From Desulfococcus multivorans (GTDB lineage: Bacteria > Desulfobacterota > Desulfobacteria > Desulfobacterales > Desulfococcaceae), in contig NZ_CP015381.1 in the NCBI RefSeq assembly GCF_001854245.1, forward strand, positions 3,197,001 through 3,261,000: a stretch of 64,000 nucleotides of DNA. The letters run 5' to 3'. The translations under genes and the position numbers were made by a program. The notes beneath the pieces were generated by a model. It was not told where the DNA came from and searched no databases. It was given only the letters and a program-made list of their open reading frames with translations. Within the stretch, counting starts at the first letter, position 1, and each line of letters starts with the position of its first letter. Below are positions 48,456-56,754 of this stretch, in pieces.

Positions 48456-49574
48456 TCAGCCGCGTCCGCCCCGCTGGGCGAGAAGCAGGGCGTCATGCAT
48501 CCGCTGGGAGTATTCTTTCTTTTTCCTCGATTTTTCCCAAACCTTGTCCTGGATCTCGGCGGTCATATCGGGACGGCTGGAGACGCCGTAGACCTCCAGC
48601 GTGCTGTTTTTGGCATCGGCTATGATGGCACGTCCAACGGGCGAACGGGTGATCACGGTAGTCCAGCCTTCCAACGAACCGATTCCGCCAAAGGAGACGT
48701 CGGCATACTCGGAGGCGTAATCCGGACAGAATCGGCAGGCGTACCGTTTCATGAAATCGATCTTCTCAAGAGGCAGCGTTTTAAGGGCGCCCGAGGTCAG
48801 ATGAATCATCAACTCATCCTTGATGTTGATTTTCCGGACATCGTTCCAGGAGATTCCGGCGATACCCTCGAGCCTCCGCCGCTCTTCCTCGTCGAATATG
48901 AAATTTCCCGAACAGAAGAGGCCCAGGGTATATCGGATACTGTCGGACGGCACGATACTCATGGCCTCCATCTTTCGAAGGGTTTTGATCTGACAGGGCG
49001 TACCCACCAGCGCGACCCGCCTGAGTCCCTTCTGCATCATGGGCCGGAACTCCTGAACCGATGGGGAATAGGTGGAATAGTCATGTCCGAAGTGCTTGAC
49101 GCCGTGAGAGCTGTCGAAATAGAACCCCGCCGAGTCGATAATCTCCTGGCGGGTGGCGGCCAGCATGGGATCCCGCTCGAAGGGCCCCATCTGCCGGGTC
49201 ACAATGGCGCCGTCGATATGTCCCCGATCAAACAGATGGACGAGAAGCGCCGTGACCACGCCCCCGTCCGTGGCTTTGGCCCGTATCGCCGGATCGGCGG
49301 CTCTTGCCGTCAGGGTCTCGATGATATGGCCCATGGGCGGCGTCCAACCGGCCACTTTTTTGGTTTCCTCCTGATATTCATCGATTTCAGGACATATCGA
49401 ATAGCAAAGGCCGCACTCGATGCATTTTTCGCGGTCCGCGTACTGCGGTGATCCGTCGTCACCGAGCTTCAGTGCGCCGTAGTTGATCGACGTGCAGAAG
49501 GTCACACATCCCCCGCAACGGTGACAAAGGCCGGGCTTCTGGACTTCGTCTATCAAGTCATTAAAGGTTTTCAT
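48456..49574 (-). CDS. FrhB-like flavoprotein (coenzyme F420 hydrogenase/dehydrogenase beta-subunit family)
   Basis: 372 residues. Two ferredoxin clusters lie at the N-terminus (CHRCGGCVTFC near 17-27 and CIECGLCYSIC near 51-61). The FrhB flavin domain follows: ATDGGVVTALLVHLFDRGHID, VALVGTPCQIKTLRKMEA, GLFCSGNF, CRFCPDYASEYADVSFGGIG. FrhB-family proteins carry FAD and exchange electrons between Fe-S clusters and a deazaflavin or another acceptor. It is 8 bp after metF and last in the hdr operon, before the terminator. Its place suggests another flavin port for the Hdr-MetVF complex; F420 use is not implied, because the family is broad. Confidence 0.88.
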   Translation of the reverse strand: MKTFNDLIDEVQKPGLCHRCGGCVTFCTSINYGALKLGDDGSPQYADREKCIECGLCYSICPEIDEYQEETKKVAGWTPPMGHIIETLTARAADPAIRAKATDGGVVTALLVHLFDRGHIDGAIVTRQMGPFERDPMLAATRQEIIDSAGFYFDSSHGVKHFGHDYSTYSPSVQEFRPMMQKGLRRVALVGTPCQIKTLRKMEAMSIVPSDSIRYTLGLFCSGNFIFDEEERRRLEGIAGISWNDVRKINIKDELMIHLTSGALKTLPLEKIDFMKRYACRFCPDYASEYADVSFGGIGSLEGWTTVITRSPVGRAIIADAKNSTLEVYGVSSRPDMTAEIQDKVWEKSRKKKEYSQRMHDALLLAQRGGRG

Positions 49575-49582
49575 GGTCCCTC

Positions 49583-50518
49583 CTACACTTCCGGCCGGGG
49601 GTACAATCCTGCCGCTTCCACGATCTCAGGCACCTTCTCTTCCCACTCGATGGCCATGATGTGGAAGCCGGCAACGCCTTTGACTTCCTTGAGACGCTGA
49701 ATCTGCTCGATGCAGATCTTGATGCCCTCCTCAGCCTGCTTTTCCTTGGGCGTATCGGCCAGCCGCTTGACGATCGCATCGGGAACATCCATTCCCGGCA
49801 CCCGATTTTTCATGTAACGGGCCATGCCGACGGATTTCATGGGCGTCAGCCCCGCCATGATATACACCTTCTCGTGAAGCCCTCGATCCACAATCTGCTT
49901 CATCCAGTCTTCGAACTTCTCCATGTTGTAAATGCATTGGGTCTGGATAAACTCGGCCCCGGCAGCCACCTTTTTGGCGAGGCGCGAAACCCGGATTTCG
50001 TAAGGATCGGCAAAAGGATTGGCCGCGGCGCCCACAAACATCTTCGGAGGACGCTTGATCTCGTCTCCACCGAGGAACTTGCCCTCGTCCCGCATCAGTC
50101 GAACGGTCTGGAGCAACTGCATGGAATCCAGATCATGAACGTTCTGCCCTTTGGCGTGATCGCCGAAACTCTGATGATCCCCGGAAAGGCAGAGAATGTT
50201 GTTGATATCCCAGGACGCAGCCCCCAGGATATCGCTCTGGAGGGCGATGCGGTTTCGGTCCCGGGTCACCATCTGCAGCACCGGCTCCACCCCCAGGGTC
50301 TTGAGGCGGATACAGGCCGCCAGCGAGCACATTCGGCAGACGGAGGTCTGGTTATCCGTGATATTTACGGCGTCGACATGATTCCGGATCAGAGCCGCCT
50401 TTTCACTGATCGCTTCAGGGTCGCTTCCGCGGGGCGGGCCGCACTCGGAGGTGACGCCGAAATGACCTGCGGCGAGAATCTTTTCCAGTTTACTTGGGGT
50501 CCGGCTTTCTTTACTCAT
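49583..50518 (-). CDS. metF: Methylenetetrahydrofolate reductase MetF
   Basis: 311 residues. TIM-barrel MetF: it begins with GHFGVTSECGPPRGSD, where the catalytic Glu of this family lies, followed by DAVNITDNQ. The later FAD-contacting segment is LCLSGDHQSFGDHA, and AGAEFIQTQCIYNMEKFEDWM is a typical MetF segment. The enzyme makes 5-methyl-THF from 5,10-methylene-THF, the methyl branch of the Wood-Ljungdahl pathway, used for CO2 fixation or acetate oxidation. In Moorella MetF works with MetV and HdrABC-MvhD. The gene overlaps metV by 8 nt, which fits a shared complex. ATG 50518 chosen at that overlap. Confidence 0.95.
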   Translation of the reverse strand: MSKESRTPSKLEKILAAGHFGVTSECGPPRGSDPEAISEKAALIRNHVDAVNITDNQTSVCRMCSLAACIRLKTLGVEPVLQMVTRDRNRIALQSDILGAASWDINNILCLSGDHQSFGDHAKGQNVHDLDSMQLLQTVRLMRDEGKFLGGDEIKRPPKMFVGAAANPFADPYEIRVSRLAKKVAAGAEFIQTQCIYNMEKFEDWMKQIVDRGLHEKVYIMAGLTPMKSVGMARYMKNRVPGMDVPDAIVKRLADTPKEKQAEEGIKICIEQIQRLKEVKGVAGFHIMAIEWEEKVPEIVEAAGLYPRPEV

Positions 50519-51179
50519 CGATCAGATCCTCCCTCACCAGTTTTCGGGGTCCGCCGGCCCTGTCGGTGGACCAGTCCTTAATGGGGGCCAGGGCCTCGTA
50601 GTCCGCCATGCGACCCAGCAGCTTCAGGCGATCTATGATGAGCTGCCAGGCACAGTCCACATCCTTGCTGATTTCGCACTTCCCTTTGGTGGACCCCCCG
50701 CAGGGTCCGTTCAGTATGCGCTTGGCACACCGGGCGATGGGACAGATGCCCCCGGTCCTCCCGAGGATACACGCACCGCAGGCCTGGCACCGCTCGGTAT
50801 AGACGCCTAGTCGCTCCACAGCTCCCAGGAATGTCGTGTTCAAGCCGGGATAGATGGGCTTTGGATATTTCTCAGCCATGAACTGGACGCCGATACCGCA
50901 GGCGGTGCTCAATACGGCTTCGGTAGCCTGGATCCGGCTCTCGGCTTTTTCGAAAAATTCATGTTCACACTGGCGTTCGATGCCGGAATCGGTGATCTCG
51001 ATGTCGACATTTTCCTGAACGGCCTTCATCCGCAGCATGGACGCCAGGATCTCCGCCTCCTTGTTGCCGCCCTGCTGGCAGACCGCCACACAGGTGTTGC
51101 AGCCAAAGACCAGGACCTTCTTGTGGCCCTTGATCATGTCCCAAATTTCTTCCAGGGGTTTTTGTTCTCCGACGATCAT
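50511..51179 (-). CDS. metV: MetV-type zinc/Fe-S subunit of methylene-THF reductase
   Basis: 222 residues. A conserved N-terminal domain has GHKKVLVFGCNTCVAVCQQGGNKE. The C-terminal part is the MetF C-terminal zinc/Fe-S domain: ERCQACGACILGRTGGICPIARCAKRILNGPCGGSTKGKCEI, given here in pieces, with eight or more cysteines (CQACGAC, CPIARC, GPCGG, GKCEI). MetV joins MetF in acetogens and sulfate reducers and carries the electron relay to the flavin. Its ATG overlaps the mvhD stop by 4 nt, and metF overlaps its 3' end by 8 nt. Family recognition is strong by motifs and neighbours. Confidence 0.92.
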   Translation of the reverse strand: MIVGEQKPLEEIWDMIKGHKKVLVFGCNTCVAVCQQGGNKEAEILASMLRMKAVQENVDIEITDSGIERQCEHEFFEKAESRIQATEAVLSTACGIGVQFMAEKYPKPIYPGLNTTFLGAVERLGVYTERCQACGACILGRTGGICPIARCAKRILNGPCGGSTKGKCEISKDVDCAWQLIIDRLKLLGRMADYEALAPIKDWSTDRAGGPRKLVREDLIDE

Positions 51180-51688
51180 CCTGCCTTACTCCTTTCCTTA
51201 GCTTCCCTAAGAGCAAACCAGATGGGAGACGGACCAAGCGCTCTGATCTTCTCTGTGAATTCGGTGCAGATCTCCGCCCATCTCGGTCCCATGGCCGCAG
51301 AGAGATTGTACATCTCAAGCCTGTCCGGATCGATGCCGACCTGGGACAGCAATTTTTTGAGATGATGGACTCGTTTCTTCGCGTTGAGATTTCCTTCCAG
51401 GAAATGACATTGTCCTTCCAGTCACCCGGCCACGAACAGGCCGTCCACGCCGCGCTCAAAAGCACGGAGCACATAACTGTGGTCCAGTTTGCCGGTGCAG
51501 GGCAGGCGGATGATCATGACATTGGGAGAATAGGATAATCGCATGACACCCGCCAGGTCGGCTGCCGCGAATGCGCAGTAATGGCAGGCGATGGCAAGAA
51601 TCCTGGGCTCCCATCCAGGAGGCGCCTCCCGGGGTGCCTCCAAAGGGACGGCCGTCTCCCGCACTGTCGTTTGTGGTAGTCCGGTCAT
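51176..51688 (-). CDS. mvhD: MvhD-like hydrogenase/Hdr-linked iron-sulfur subunit, selenoprotein (in-frame TGA)
   Basis: 170 residues if the in-frame TGA at 51422-51424 is read as selenocysteine (residue 89). Before it the protein reads ILAIACHYCAFAAADLAGVM, then NVMIIRLPCTGKLDHSYVLRAF and GVDGLFVAG; after it LEGQCHFLEGNLNAKKRVHH, then AMGPRWAEICTEFTEKIRAL. MvhD proteins have a Cys at this place in GVFVAGC-type motifs, and selenocysteine versions are known in Methanococcus VhuD and in sulfate reducers. A hairpin starts 16 nt after the TGA. Stopping at TGA would leave an 88-residue half-protein. The stop overlaps metV by 4 nt. MvhD carries the [2Fe-2S] link into HdrA. Start ATG 51688 behind AAAGGAAA. 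Confidence 0.93.
51389..51424 (-). other. Selenocysteine TGA codon and SECIS-like hairpin in mvhD
   Basis: TGA at 51422-51424 on the minus strand, 16 bases, then a stem ATTTCC / GGAAAT with the five-base loop TGGAA (51389-51405). Bacterial SECIS elements lie immediately after the UGA within about 40 nt, as here. The conserved reading frame on both sides of the TGA and the GVDGLFVAG-x-LEGQCH context are the main support. Confidence 0.88.
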
Positions 51689-51756: not shown

Positions 51757-54700
51757 CTATTCCATCTCCGTGGCCGCGTCGATCATGGCGATGATCTGAT
51801 CGTCCCGGAAGCTGTTGACCTGGAACGCCTTGGCCGGACAGACGCCGGCACAGATGCCGCACCCGGTGCAGATCACCTCGTTGTGGCTGATCTTCCCGTC
51901 CTCATCGATAAACGGCGAGCCGAAGGGGCAGAGCCGCAGGCAGGCCAGGCAGGACATGCAAATATCCCGGTTGTGTTTGGAAATAATCCCCGACACGCTC
52001 AGACGGTCGTGGGAAAGCACCACGCCCGCCCGGCCGGCGGCAGCCAGTGCCTGACTCAAGGTTTCATCCAGGTTCTTGGGGGCGTGGGCCAGCCCCGCCA
52101 CGTAAATGCCTTCGCTGGGAAAGTCCACAGGCCGAAGTTTTACGTGGGCCTCAAGAAAATACCCGTCCGGATTGACCGTCAGCTTGTACTGGCGGCCGAT
52201 CTTCTCGGTCAGCGGATGGGGCCGCAGTCCTGTAGAGAGGACTACCCAATCCGGTGAAAAGCCCACCTCGCGATTGAGAACATAATCATAGGCCGTGACC
52301 CGCAGCCTGTCTCCTGATACGGTTACGTCGGGTTTTCGGTCCGGTTCGAAACGAACGAACAGCACCCCCAACGCCCTCGCCCGCTGGTAGTAATCCTCCC
52401 GCAGACCGTAAGTCCGTATATCCCGGTATAGAATTGTCACCTGAGCCGTCGGGGAGGCTTCCTTGATGGCGATGGCATTCTTGACGGCATCCTGGCAACA
52501 GATCCGGGAGCAGTAGTTGTGGGGTTCCTCGCGGGAGCCGACACACTGGATCATGAGAAAATGCCGGTCTCCCGGATCCATCCCCTGGGCAATCCGCTTC
52601 TCCAGATCCCGTTGGGTGATGATCCTGTCACTCTCTCCGTAGCCGTATTCCCGGGGTGTGTATTCCACACCTCCGGTGGCCACGACGATAACGCCATGCT
52701 CGAAGACATCTCCGTTGGTGAGGGTGGTCTTGAAATTGCCGATATACCCGCCGGTGCCGTCAACCTCCGCCCCGGTGTGAACGTTGATTCTGGGGTGGGC
52801 CTTCACCTGATCGATCCGAGCCTTCACGAATGACTGTACGTCGGCGCCGTCCAAGGTCCGGTAAACGCCTGCGGCCAGACCGCCCAGACGCTCCTCTTTT
52901 TCAACGACATGGACATCAAACCCCTGATCTCCCAGGGCCAGCGCCGTCGTCATGCCGGCCAGGCCGCCGCCGATGACCATGGCACCGGGAATCACCGGCA
53001 CCGACTCCGTCTGTACCGGTTGGAGCTTCCTGGCTTTGGCAATGTTCATTTTGACAATCCGGGAAGCCTTTTGGGTGGCGACATCCTTCTGGCCCATGTG
53101 GCACCAGGAACACTGCTCCCGGATGTCCGCCAGTTCGAAAAGATATTTGTTGAGTCCGGCATCCCGAATGGTGTCTTGGAAAAGCGGCGCATGGGTCCGG
53201 GGCGTACAGGAGGCCACGATGACCCGGTTGAGCTTCTTTTCCCGGATGACATCCTTGATCCGCTCCTGACCGTCGGGGGCACAGGCGTACATGAGATCGT
53301 CCGAATAGACGACCTCCGGCAGCCCCCGCATCTCTTCGGCCACCTTTTTAACATCCACGGTCTGGGCGATATTGATGCCGCAGTGACAGACAAACACCCC
53401 CACCCGGGCCTCCTGGCCGGTGATGTCGGTTTCGGGCGGCAGTTCAGGAGCCACGATCTCGGTCCCCCGGGCTTCGCCCAGAAGGGCCATGGCCCGTCCG
53501 GCAACGGCGCTGCCCTGGGCCACCGTCTCGGGGATATCCTTGGGCCCCTGGAAGGTGCCCGTGACGTAAACTCCCTCCCGGCTGGTCTCCACCGGTGCCA
53601 GGGTAGCGGTTTTGGCAAATCGATGCACATTGGCGTCGATGCCAAAGGTCTTGGCGAAGGCCAGAGCGTCACGGTGAGGCTCAAAACCAATGGAGAGGAC
53701 CACCATATCGAACATTTCGTCCACCATGGTTCCATCGATTGCCGCATACCGGAGCAGCAGGTTCCCGGTGCCGGGCTCCTCCTTGATGTCGGAAATCATG
53801 GTTCGCCGGTAGACGACGCCGTATTGGTTTCTGGCACGATCGACATATTTGTCGAAGTCCTTGCCGAAAGCACGCATCTCCATGTAGAAGATCGTCGGCT
53901 GAATGCTGCCGTCGTGCTCCTTGGCGATGACCGCCTGCTTGGTGGCGTACATGCAGCAAACCGAAGAACACCAGGGATTGGCGTTCCGCGGGTCTCTGGA
54001 TCCCACGCACTGGATCCAGGCGACCTTCTTGGGGTGTCGCTCGTCCGAAGGGCGCTTCACCTCTCCCATGAAGGGGCCGGAGGCGGAGAGAATTCGCTCG
54101 AACTGGATGGAGGTCACCACATTGGGCCAACGGCCGAAACCGAGTTCTCCGCGGACCTTCGGATCGTATCGATCCAGCCCCGGACTCAGGATGATGGCGC
54201 CCACCTGGAGATCGTAGACCTTCTCCGTATCCTCGAAGTTGATGGCGTCCGTCTCACAGAATTTGGTACAGGCCCTGCACTTCCCCTTGGTCAGATAAAT
54301 GCAGTTGTCTTTGTCGATGACCCGGGTATGGGGGACCGCCTGGGGCAGGATCGTATAGATGGCCTTACGCTTGCTGAGACCCTGTTCAAAAGTATTCACC
54401 ACCAGCTTAGGACATTTCTTCTCACAGGCACCGCACCCGGTACAGCGCTCCGGGATCACGAACCGCGGCTGCTCCCGGACGGTTACGGTGAAGTCGCCCG
54501 GGAGACCTGAAACCGCCTCGACATTCGAGAGGGTGTGAATTTCGATGTTGGGATGCCGCCCCACCTCCACCATCTTGGGCGAAATCATGCACATGGAGCA
54601 GTCACCCGTGGGAAAGGTCTTGTCCAGCATCGCCATTGTTCCGCCAATGGAGGATTCCCGCTGAATCATATGGACCTTAAACCCGCTGTCCGCAAGATCG

Positions 54701-54780
54701 AGAGCGGCCTGCATGCCGCCGATCCCGCCGCCCGCGATCAGAACCGAGCCGCGTTTGATGTGTTGTCGACTATCGTTCAT
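51757..54780 (-). CDS. hdrA: HdrA-like flavoprotein, tandem (two HdrA modules fused)
   Basis: 1007 residues, about 1.5 to 2 times a single HdrA. Module 1 (about 1-480): FAD Rossmann VLIAGGGIGGMQAALDLADSG, then SSIGGTMAMLDKTFPTGDCSMC with the HdrA cysteines, two clusters CTGCGACEKKC and CRACTKFC. Module 2 (about 480-960): VGVFVCHCGINIAQTVD, then SCTPRTHAPLFQDTI, a second FAD site MVIGGGLAGMTTALALGDQG, and ending with two ferredoxin clusters (CMSCLACLRLCPFG, CTGCGICAGVCPAK). HdrA holds the bifurcating FAD and cluster chain that splits electrons between high- and low-potential acceptors. Module 2 lacks the GGT...DCSMC-type cysteines. It overlaps hdrB by 11 nt. All its cysteine positions are TGY/TGC; no internal TGA. 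Confidence 0.92.
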   Translation of the reverse strand: MNDSRQHIKRGSVLIAGGGIGGMQAALDLADSGFKVHMIQRESSIGGTMAMLDKTFPTGDCSMCMISPKMVEVGRHPNIEIHTLSNVEAVSGLPGDFTVTVREQPRFVIPERCTGCGACEKKCPKLVVNTFEQGLSKRKAIYTILPQAVPHTRVIDKDNCIYLTKGKCRACTKFCETDAINFEDTEKVYDLQVGAIILSPGLDRYDPKVRGELGFGRWPNVVTSIQFERILSASGPFMGEVKRPSDERHPKKVAWIQCVGSRDPRNANPWCSSVCCMYATKQAVIAKEHDGSIQPTIFYMEMRAFGKDFDKYVDRARNQYGVVYRRTMISDIKEEPGTGNLLLRYAAIDGTMVDEMFDMVVLSIGFEPHRDALAFAKTFGIDANVHRFAKTATLAPVETSREGVYVTGTFQGPKDIPETVAQGSAVAGRAMALLGEARGTEIVAPELPPETDITGQEARVGVFVCHCGINIAQTVDVKKVAEEMRGLPEVVYSDDLMYACAPDGQERIKDVIREKKLNRVIVASCTPRTHAPLFQDTIRDAGLNKYLFELADIREQCSWCHMGQKDVATQKASRIVKMNIAKARKLQPVQTESVPVIPGAMVIGGGLAGMTTALALGDQGFDVHVVEKEERLGGLAAGVYRTLDGADVQSFVKARIDQVKAHPRINVHTGAEVDGTGGYIGNFKTTLTNGDVFEHGVIVVATGGVEYTPREYGYGESDRIITQRDLEKRIAQGMDPGDRHFLMIQCVGSREEPHNYCSRICCQDAVKNAIAIKEASPTAQVTILYRDIRTYGLREDYYQRARALGVLFVRFEPDRKPDVTVSGDRLRVTAYDYVLNREVGFSPDWVVLSTGLRPHPLTEKIGRQYKLTVNPDGYFLEAHVKLRPVDFPSEGIYVAGLAHAPKNLDETLSQALAAAGRAGVVLSHDRLSVSGIISKHNRDICMSCLACLRLCPFGSPFIDEDGKISHNEVICTGCGICAGVCPAKAFQVNSFRDDQIIAMIDAATEME

Positions 54781-55651
54781 CTCCCTCCAGCTCCTTTAAA
54801 AGTGTGGTCCCGTCTATAAAATGCCGATCCACCTGAAGCGCCTCCGGGGATATTCCCATCGCCGCGCCGACAACCTCTGTGATAAAAAAGACCGGAAGTC
54901 GCTCTTCGATACCGCTCCTTCGGCAGAACGCATCCTGATGGGCGTCCAGGTTCAACTGACACATGGGACAGGTCGCCACGAAGCAGTTGGCTCCCCTGAG
55001 AAGCGCATCTTTCATGATTTTCCCCATCAGATTCAGGGACGTTTCGGGATCGTTGACGGCAGCCGACGCACCGCAGCAAAAGGTTTTGTGACTCCAGTCG
55101 ATGGCTTTGACACCCAGTGCGCCCAGCACCGTTTCCATGCCCTGAGGATTTTCCACATCGTCGGGAACCGGCACCGTGAAGGGAAAACGGGTCTGCATAC
55201 AACCATAGTAGCATACGGGCTTGAGCCGTCTGAACTTTCTCTTGAGCTTGGGCTCGAGGGCGCCCGCCGCGATTCGACCAAGCAGCACCTCTAGAATGGA
55301 AGAGATCTTCAAGCCGCCGTTCATTTTTTTGGCGAAAGCACCATTGATCTCCGCCTTCAGCCGGGCGTCGCCTTCAAGCCGCTGCTGTGCCACGAGAGTC
55401 CTGGAGTAGCAGGCGGAACAGGGGATTACGATCTCCCGGTACCCGGCAGCCTCTGCAATGCCGATGTTTCGAGCCGGCATGGCCACGGCCAGAAAATCAT
55501 CCACCTTTCCGGCGGATGTGGCGCCGCAGCAGTTCCAGTCCTCGATTTCCTTCAGCTCAACCCCCAATTCGGAAAAAATCCGGCGGCTCTGGATATCGTA
55601 CAGCGCGGACGACTGTTTCAGGGAGCATCCGGGGTAATACGCGATTTCCAT
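54770..55651 (-). CDS. hdrB: Heterodisulfide reductase subunit HdrB
   Basis: 293 residues, with two CCG domains. The first has EDWNCCGATSAGKVDDF and IVIPCSACYSRT, the second HKTFCCGASAAVNDPE and CFVATCPMCQLNLDAHQ, i.e. the two Cys-rich CX31-39CCX35-36CXXC motifs that bind non-cubane [4Fe-4S] clusters in HdrB. It starts YYPGCSLKQSSALYD, as usual. In methanogens HdrB reduces CoM-S-S-CoB; in bacteria the final acceptor can be the MetVF reductase or another disulfide. It overlaps hdrA by 11 nt and follows hdrC by 16 bp. ATG 55651. Confidence 0.95.
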   Translation of the reverse strand: MEIAYYPGCSLKQSSALYDIQSRRIFSELGVELKEIEDWNCCGATSAGKVDDFLAVAMPARNIGIAEAAGYREIVIPCSACYSRTLVAQQRLEGDARLKAEINGAFAKKMNGGLKISSILEVLLGRIAAGALEPKLKRKFRRLKPVCYYGCMQTRFPFTVPVPDDVENPQGMETVLGALGVKAIDWSHKTFCCGASAAVNDPETSLNLMGKIMKDALLRGANCFVATCPMCQLNLDAHQDAFCRRSGIEERLPVFFITEVVGAAMGISPEALQVDRHFIDGTTLLKELEGDER

Positions 55652-55667
55652 GATCTACCTCTTTCCT

Positions 55668-56300
55668 CTAAGGGTTCACGCGGGGTGAGACCCCCGGTTT
55701 TTTGCGGGTCTTGCGATATAGCGCCTTGATTTCCTTTCGTCCTTTTGTCGTCATGAAACCGGCATGCATGCGCTTCAGCCTGAACATGGCCATACCCAGC
55801 TTCGCCTGCGTCTTCAACTCGTCGACGATGGCCTCGTAATTCCTGGCACGCGCCTCTCTTATGATGTTTTTCATTTCGTAGACACCCATGAATTCCATCT
55901 CGTTGACCCGGCCCCACCGCAAACCCGATTCCAAAAAGCTGTCATGGAACGCTGCCACCTTTGGCTGAAGCGGTGCGATGTGTGCCTCCTTGGCCATCTT
56001 TTTGAGAGTCTCGGTGATTCTGGCGGTCTGAATGTCGTTGGGGCAGCGCGTACCGCATGTGTAGCAGGAGACGCATTTCCAGACCAGAGGGTTGGAGAGG
56101 GCCGTTTCCCGATCGCCCAGAATAACGGTGCGAATCAAGATGTTGGGGGTGAAAAAACCGGTTTCGTCGGCCACCGTACATCCGGCCGCACATCGGCGGC
56201 ACTGGTAGCAGGCGGTCAGCATCTGCCCCGAGCGTTCCATGACCTCCTGGAGCAGGGGTTTTGCCTGCTCGGGCCTGAATTCGAGTAATGGTCCCGTCAT
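55668..56300 (-). CDS. hdrC: Heterodisulfide reductase subunit HdrC
   Basis: 210 residues. Two ferredoxin-type clusters lie near 31-42 (CYQCRRCAAGC) and near 75-86 (CVSCYTCGTRC), each ending in CP further on, the HdrC pattern. A helical C-terminal part follows (MKNIIREARARNYEAIVDELK). HdrC relays electrons between HdrA and HdrB. Start ATG 56300 behind AAGGAG; a longer open frame upstream to 56447 has no good ribosome site and odd composition. It is the first gene of the hdrCBA-mvhD-metVF-frhB operon; its promoter is at 56483-56510. Confidence 0.94.
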   Translation of the reverse strand: MTGPLLEFRPEQAKPLLQEVMERSGQMLTACYQCRRCAAGCTVADETGFFTPNILIRTVILGDRETALSNPLVWKCVSCYTCGTRCPNDIQTARITETLKKMAKEAHIAPLQPKVAAFHDSFLESGLRWGRVNEMEFMGVYEMKNIIREARARNYEAIVDELKTQAKLGMAMFRLKRMHAGFMTTKGRKEIKALYRKTRKKPGVSPRVNP

Positions 56301-56754
56301 TTTTTCTCCTTCTCCGTGAAGGGTTTTATTTCGAGGCCAGCCCGCATACCGCTGTCGCTGTCGATAGGATCTGTTTCCGTGGAATCGGCGTGATTGGCAC
56401 CCAAATAGGCGTTGATGCCACCCTGTTTGACAAAGGCAACCTGTCAATCAATGTGCAATGAAAAATTTTATGAATGATATTTATTAGATTTATCGTCGTC
56501 CATTTGTCAAGAACAAAATGCCCAGGGGCAGCAATCTTTTTTTTGGAATCAACCAACATGATCACCTCCGCCAACGATCTCATCATCATATTCGACGACG
56601 AATGTGAGGAGAGACATCGGCGGACCTTCGCCGGCGGGTAACAGCGTATGGAATTTGAAACGGAAAGAAAGCAGAGGGATAGGGTTGACTTCAAATCTGA
56701 CATTGTCTATGGTCAGATCGACGATTTGGATGACTCTCAAAAAAAGGAGAAAAA
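56301..56754. other. Divergent intergenic region upstream of hdrC
   Basis: About 450 bp between hdrC and the ACT gene. It holds the hdr promoter at 56483-56510 and about 175 bp of leader before hdrC. Short overlapping frames on both strands lack ribosome sites and I leave them out. Confidence 0.55.
56483..56510 (-). promoter_or_regulatory. Sigma-70 promoter of the hdr operon
   Basis: On the minus strand: TTGACA (56505-56510), 16-bp spacer, TCTAAT (56483-56488; five of six bases of TATAAT). Start near 56476, leaving a leader of about 175 nt before hdrC. Confidence 0.7.

Follow-up and report, generated by a model that had tools for sequence, protein, structure and literature searches.

MvhD proteins carry one [2Fe-2S] cluster and hand electrons to HdrA (PMC6019823, PMC12350162). 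Selenocysteine (Sec)-containing members of the family have been reported as FrhD in Syntrophobacter, Syntrophus and Moorella in 2006 (PMC1794560), as MvhD1, 2, 3 and 5 in Desulfobacterium autotrophicum HRM2 in 2009 (PMC2702500) and as methanogen VhuD/FrhD with a CxxU motif (PMC13188914); the initial annotation had likewise named MvhD/VhuD selenoproteins as known. The arrangement HdrCBA-MvhD-MetVF has been proposed as a type of methylene-THF reductase, with pull-down support in Sporomusa ovata (PMC9430772). For Desulfococcus multivorans DSM 2059, the genome paper describes acetyl-CoA oxidation through the Wood-Ljungdahl pathway, a set of five genes in which a Sec UGA is accompanied by a SECIS element, including mvhD (dmul_C28840/50), and an mvhD2 that adjoins hdrA2BC at 3.25 Mbp; it also reports the detection of every HdrA2BC subunit during growth on cyclohexane carboxylate (PMC5109826). 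The mvhD gene analysed here is the same gene, judged by its position and the reported Sec UGA/SECIS, and no difference was found from the account in that paper; its match to the tags dmul_C28840/50 was drawn from position and tag order. The Sec-containing mvhD of D. multivorans is not new, having been reported in 2016 in the same bacterium. Our analysis adds to the published record its linkage to metV, comparative evidence for the hairpin, Sec genes that were not listed and, as a caveat, a second UGA-reading pair.

The gene lies at 51176–51688 on the minus strand of the 64-kb window (the whole stretch of DNA analysed), corresponding to genome positions 3,248,176–3,248,688; the genome was analysed as one contig of 4,455,399 bp. 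Read from 51688 to 51176, its 513 nt comprise 170 codons and a TGA stop, with a further in-frame TGA at 51422–51424 (minus strand) as codon 89. The initial annotation, which named no strand, had described an 88-residue fragment if this TGA is a stop and a 170-residue MvhD if it encodes Sec, and both lengths were reproduced. Standard translation ends at 88 residues and an ordinary gene caller cuts the gene there, as had been anticipated, making mvhD a clean example of a gene split by automated callers at a Sec UGA. The 88-residue ORF is also what would be seen if the TGA were a nonsense mutation, with mvhD a pseudogene or two split ORFs. MvhD motifs were recovered on both sides of the TGA (GVDGLFVAG-U-LEGQCHFLEGN), and the FlpD domain (PF02662) is continuous across it, the Pfam profile spanning residues 30–152 over its positions 1–123 of 123 (E 5.8e-47). 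In comparison to solved MvhD chains, all five conserved Cys/Sec sites are present (C35, C38, C64, U89 and C94). Sec is predicted at 89 only (AGUxxxxCH), where it would stand in for one of the five conserved MvhD cysteines, and residue 38 remains Cys. Codon usage, as a screen for further Sec genes in the window, was not discriminating, with mvhD ranking only 14th; none of six other read-through frames in the window had a Pfam match, and a search of the plasmid collection returned no match.

Relatives were retrieved with search patterns built from a query carrying Cys in place of Sec, and therefore without bias towards TGA. A TGA was found exactly at codon 89 in 69/76 genome_contigs loci (65–92% identical), from the Desulfobacterota and Nitrospirota, and all 69 of these Sec-type relatives continue past it. 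The remaining seven loci, from Chloroflexota, Armatimonadota, Planctomycetota (two), Desulfarculus, Cloacimonadota and Methanomassiliicoccales, had TGT or TGC, and remoter MvhD homologs mostly carried these Cys codons at the aligned position. A Cys at residue 89 in remote homologs would be in keeping with a sequencing or assembly error that turned TGC or TGT into TGA; however, the same TGA recurs in dozens of unrelated assemblies and in a congener that was assembled separately (L059/L030, 92% identical), and the probability of such an error is vanishingly small. Pairwise dN/dS of mvhD versus six orthologs was 0.02–0.11 before the TGA (codons 26–88) and, where computable, 0.07–0.12 after it (codons 90–156). 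These low values downstream of the TGA indicate that this part of mvhD is translated and constrained. Against a nonsense mutation, then, stand the fixation of the same TGA across Desulfobacterota and Nitrospirota, the low dN/dS of the downstream codons and the near-invariant hairpin described below; the pseudogene reading appears to be already refuted through conservation, and we regard it as extremely improbable.

A SECIS-type hairpin (ATTTCCT-GGA-AGGAAAT) is located at 51389–51405 (minus strand), within codons 95–100. Its first base is nt 17 past the TGA, leaving a 16-nt gap. The stem comprises six base pairs and a seventh that can close, in agreement with the 6-bp hairpin of the initial annotation. 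Judged from this single gene, the hairpin carries little weight: among synonymous encodings of HFLEGN, ~13% pair equally perfectly and 12% fold equally stably, and an argument from the D. multivorans gene by itself was dropped on the former count. It is comparison across orthologs that places the hairpin far beyond chance. In 74 distinct orthologs, relative synonymous entropy was 0.13 at codons 95–100 versus 0.91 at 98 other positions, none of which fell below 0.35. These nearly frozen codons were CAT (74), TTC or TAC, CTG (74), GAA (67), GGA or GGT, and AAT (73). The two variable choices were strictly associated, TTC occurring with GGA (54) and TAC with GGT (20) without exception, and this covariation preserves the pairing between base 2 of codon 96 and base 3 of codon 99. 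All seven pairs can form in 70/74 orthologs and six in the other four, compared to mostly three to five in 29 Cys homologs. Treating the 54/20 split as independent events was dropped. On the tree, which has few columns and many open forks, two changes suffice for the flip between TTC/GGA and TAC/GGT, and the flip is therefore supporting evidence only. The SECIS call was made from conservation and pairing. On this comparative footing, mvhD appears to possess the conserved SECIS hairpin of a bacterial selenoprotein gene, and this in-frame element just 3' of UGA 89 would direct Sec insertion.

The machinery for Sec insertion was also apparent in the genome. The tRNA-Sec scored 77.2 bits (cut-off 47), with anticodon UCA and G73, and was accompanied by selB (361 bits), selA (619 bits) and two selD genes (374 and 372 bits), such that neither selB nor selC, whose absence the initial annotation held would speak against Sec, is missing. 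Both machinery and relatives support the Sec reading proposed there. From sequence comparison, the mvhD2 of D. multivorans DSM 2059 almost certainly encodes a selenoprotein, most likely one that belongs to an Hdr-type methylenetetrahydrofolate reductase, with UGA codon 89 predicted to be decoded as Sec by SelB and tRNA-Sec at the SECIS hairpin.

Other in-frame TGA codons were observed in the same genome. Both selD genes, at genome 392680–393600 (L018, plus strand) and 2844887–2845810 (L019, minus strand), have one close to the N-terminus (GAGUASK and TCGUAAK). A second MvhD-like (FlpD) gene, with a ferredoxin-like C-terminal part, has a TGA at codon 38 (CxxU; CHWU) and adjoins a bam-type cluster (L135 6699–7070, minus strand; genome 2744698–2745069). 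Directly upstream of it is an HdrA-like gene with a TGA at residue 73 (CSMU), which is probably the published BamE. At least three Sec genes, namely the two selD and the CxxU MvhD, are absent from the five listed in the genome paper (PMC5109826), and the published tally is too low. Most MvhD paralogs of related genomes have a Cys codon at position 89. They may combine it with Cys or with Sec (CxxU) at codon 38, whereas others have Sec at 89. Three such Sec-89 paralogs (L044, L045 and L050) combine a TGA at 89 and the identical 17-nt hairpin with a place in a separate, mainly Cys-containing clade, through a separate gain, inheritance or transfer. The Sec-MvhD of the Nitrospiraceae isolate fen_1308 (L111) has the Nitrospirota-type pair TAC/GGT and grouped weakly with the Desulfobacterota, reflecting either poor resolution or transfer.

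The tRNA-Sec search also returned a second match at 45.6 bits, just below the cut-off, which ARAGORN called as tRNA-Sec with anticodon UCA. This selC*-type tRNA (genome 1716502–1716415, minus strand; L002 1588–1497) has A1:U72, an 8-bp acceptor stem, discriminator U73, an encoded CCA and a T-stem of 4 bp that contains an additional A. A second selB-family gene, which has the SelB barrel as well as the final winged-helix domain, begins ~18 nt downstream, the pair occupying genome 1716506–1714445 (L139/L010, minus strand). The primary paper on selC* is reportedly that of Mukai et al. 2017. A review describes selC* tRNA-Cys together with selB* in Desulfobacterales, with features as in the second tRNA here, and reports a cysS* without the anticodon-binding domain downstream of selB* (PMC7609411). 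The second UGA-reading pair is an already known kind of system, and the available part of the D. multivorans genome paper makes no mention of it (PMC5109826).

Through this pair, a selC*-type tRNA-Cys and a SelB-like factor could insert Cys at UGA 89, either always or in a fraction of the protein, for example under selenium-poor conditions. Such decoding would suit the Cys of remote MvhD homologs at this residue and the position of a UCA tRNA with selC* features directly upstream of the second selB. The pair also recurs: 8/57 relatives carry a close homolog of the second selB, and ARAGORN placed the same tRNA directly upstream of it in five of these eight and nearby in a sixth. However, the region downstream of the second selB in D. 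multivorans yielded no truncated CysRS (cysS*); the two CysRS genes in the genome are both elsewhere and both retain the C-terminal anticodon-binding domain. In addition, the T-stem of the second tRNA has a C:C mismatch where relatives show G:C. Finally, TGA 89 is retained in three relatives (G001, G003 and G005, of which G001 and G003 are draft genomes) in which the search for close homologs of the second selB returned none; mvhD is therefore independent of the second pair, and Sec is the main reading of UGA 89 on this comparison. We consider decoding as Cys unlikely. A low probability is likewise given to a scheme in which the same UGA, e.g. in mvhD, is filled with Sec or Cys according to selenium supply by two UGA tRNAs with their own SelB-like factors; the MvhD linked to metV, whose Sec is fixed at the second of the Cys sites and not in CxxU, would be well suited to testing this. 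The occurrence of the second pair in cultivated D. multivorans makes Sec-versus-Cys decoding testable. One of the two CysRS (genome 1621157–1622521, minus strand; L170), which keeps its DALR and C-terminal domains, lies downstream of a cysK-like cysteine synthase in the same open frame, uninterrupted over 763 codons; either a fusion or two neighbouring genes in one frame would account for this.

The operon in which mvhD is found has the order hdrC-hdrB-hdrA-mvhD-metV-metF-frhB-like, all on the minus strand. Upstream of mvhD are hdrC (55668–56447; 4Fe-4S, start uncertain), hdrB (54770–55651; two CCG domains) and hdrA (51757–54780), whose 1007-aa product has two flavin modules and whose frame is free of in-frame TGA. 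Downstream are metV (50511–51179; PF12225, methylene-THF reductase C-terminal family), metF (49583–50518; methylenetetrahydrofolate reductase, PF02219) and a gene for an FrhB/FdhB-like subunit (48456–49574; PF04432 and PF04422), which adjoins metF in several Desulfobacterota too. The mvhD stop (51178–51176) and the metV ATG (51179–51177) share the 4-nt ATGA at 51176–51179, in agreement with the overlap given by the initial annotation. Of the 64 Sec-type loci whose sequence extends far enough downstream, 62 have metV directly after mvhD, and in the other two it lies 1.3 and 2.2 kb further on. This near-constant linkage of U89 to metV provides a concrete setting in which to study the role of Sec in an Hdr-type methylene-THF reductase. 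Sec insertion competes with termination, and with the metV start lying within the mvhD stop, UGA 89 might additionally serve as a selenium-dependent switch, scarcity of Sec causing a stop at 88 residues and a drop in metV translation; we hold this to be improbable.

The full gene set for an Hdr-type methylene-THF reductase (hdrCBA, mvhD, metV and metF) is present. Going by the operon order and the Moorella and Sporomusa systems, MvhD, HdrABC, MetV and MetF most likely form such an enzyme, in which electrons would pass via MvhD to the flavins of HdrA. D. multivorans oxidises acetyl-CoA via the Wood-Ljungdahl pathway, and the oxidative direction is therefore the natural inference: in this complete oxidiser, the complex would probably run the methyl-THF-oxidising direction of the pathway.

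In comparison to known systems, the MvhD proteins of Db. autotrophicum and the FrhD proteins of Syntrophobacter, Syntrophus and Moorella belong to the same family and share UGA-encoded Sec; the Db. autotrophicum genes are linked to hdrA or hdrL. The methanogen VhuD/FrhD (CxxU, PMC13188914; PDB 9sfi_K) have the family and the electron-transfer role in common with MvhD of D. multivorans, and each of the two sites in 9sfi_K is occupied by a non-standard residue. The D. multivorans protein, however, has Cys at 38 and predicted Sec only at 89, and the archaeal SECIS is found outside the coding region (PMC9312934) whereas the hairpin of mvhD is inside the reading frame. The gene set of D. multivorans is the same as that of HdrCBA-MvhD-MetVF in Moorella thermoacetica and Sporomusa ovata (PMC9430772, PMC5736913), but these acetogens use the pathway reductively, while D. 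multivorans oxidises acetyl-CoA.
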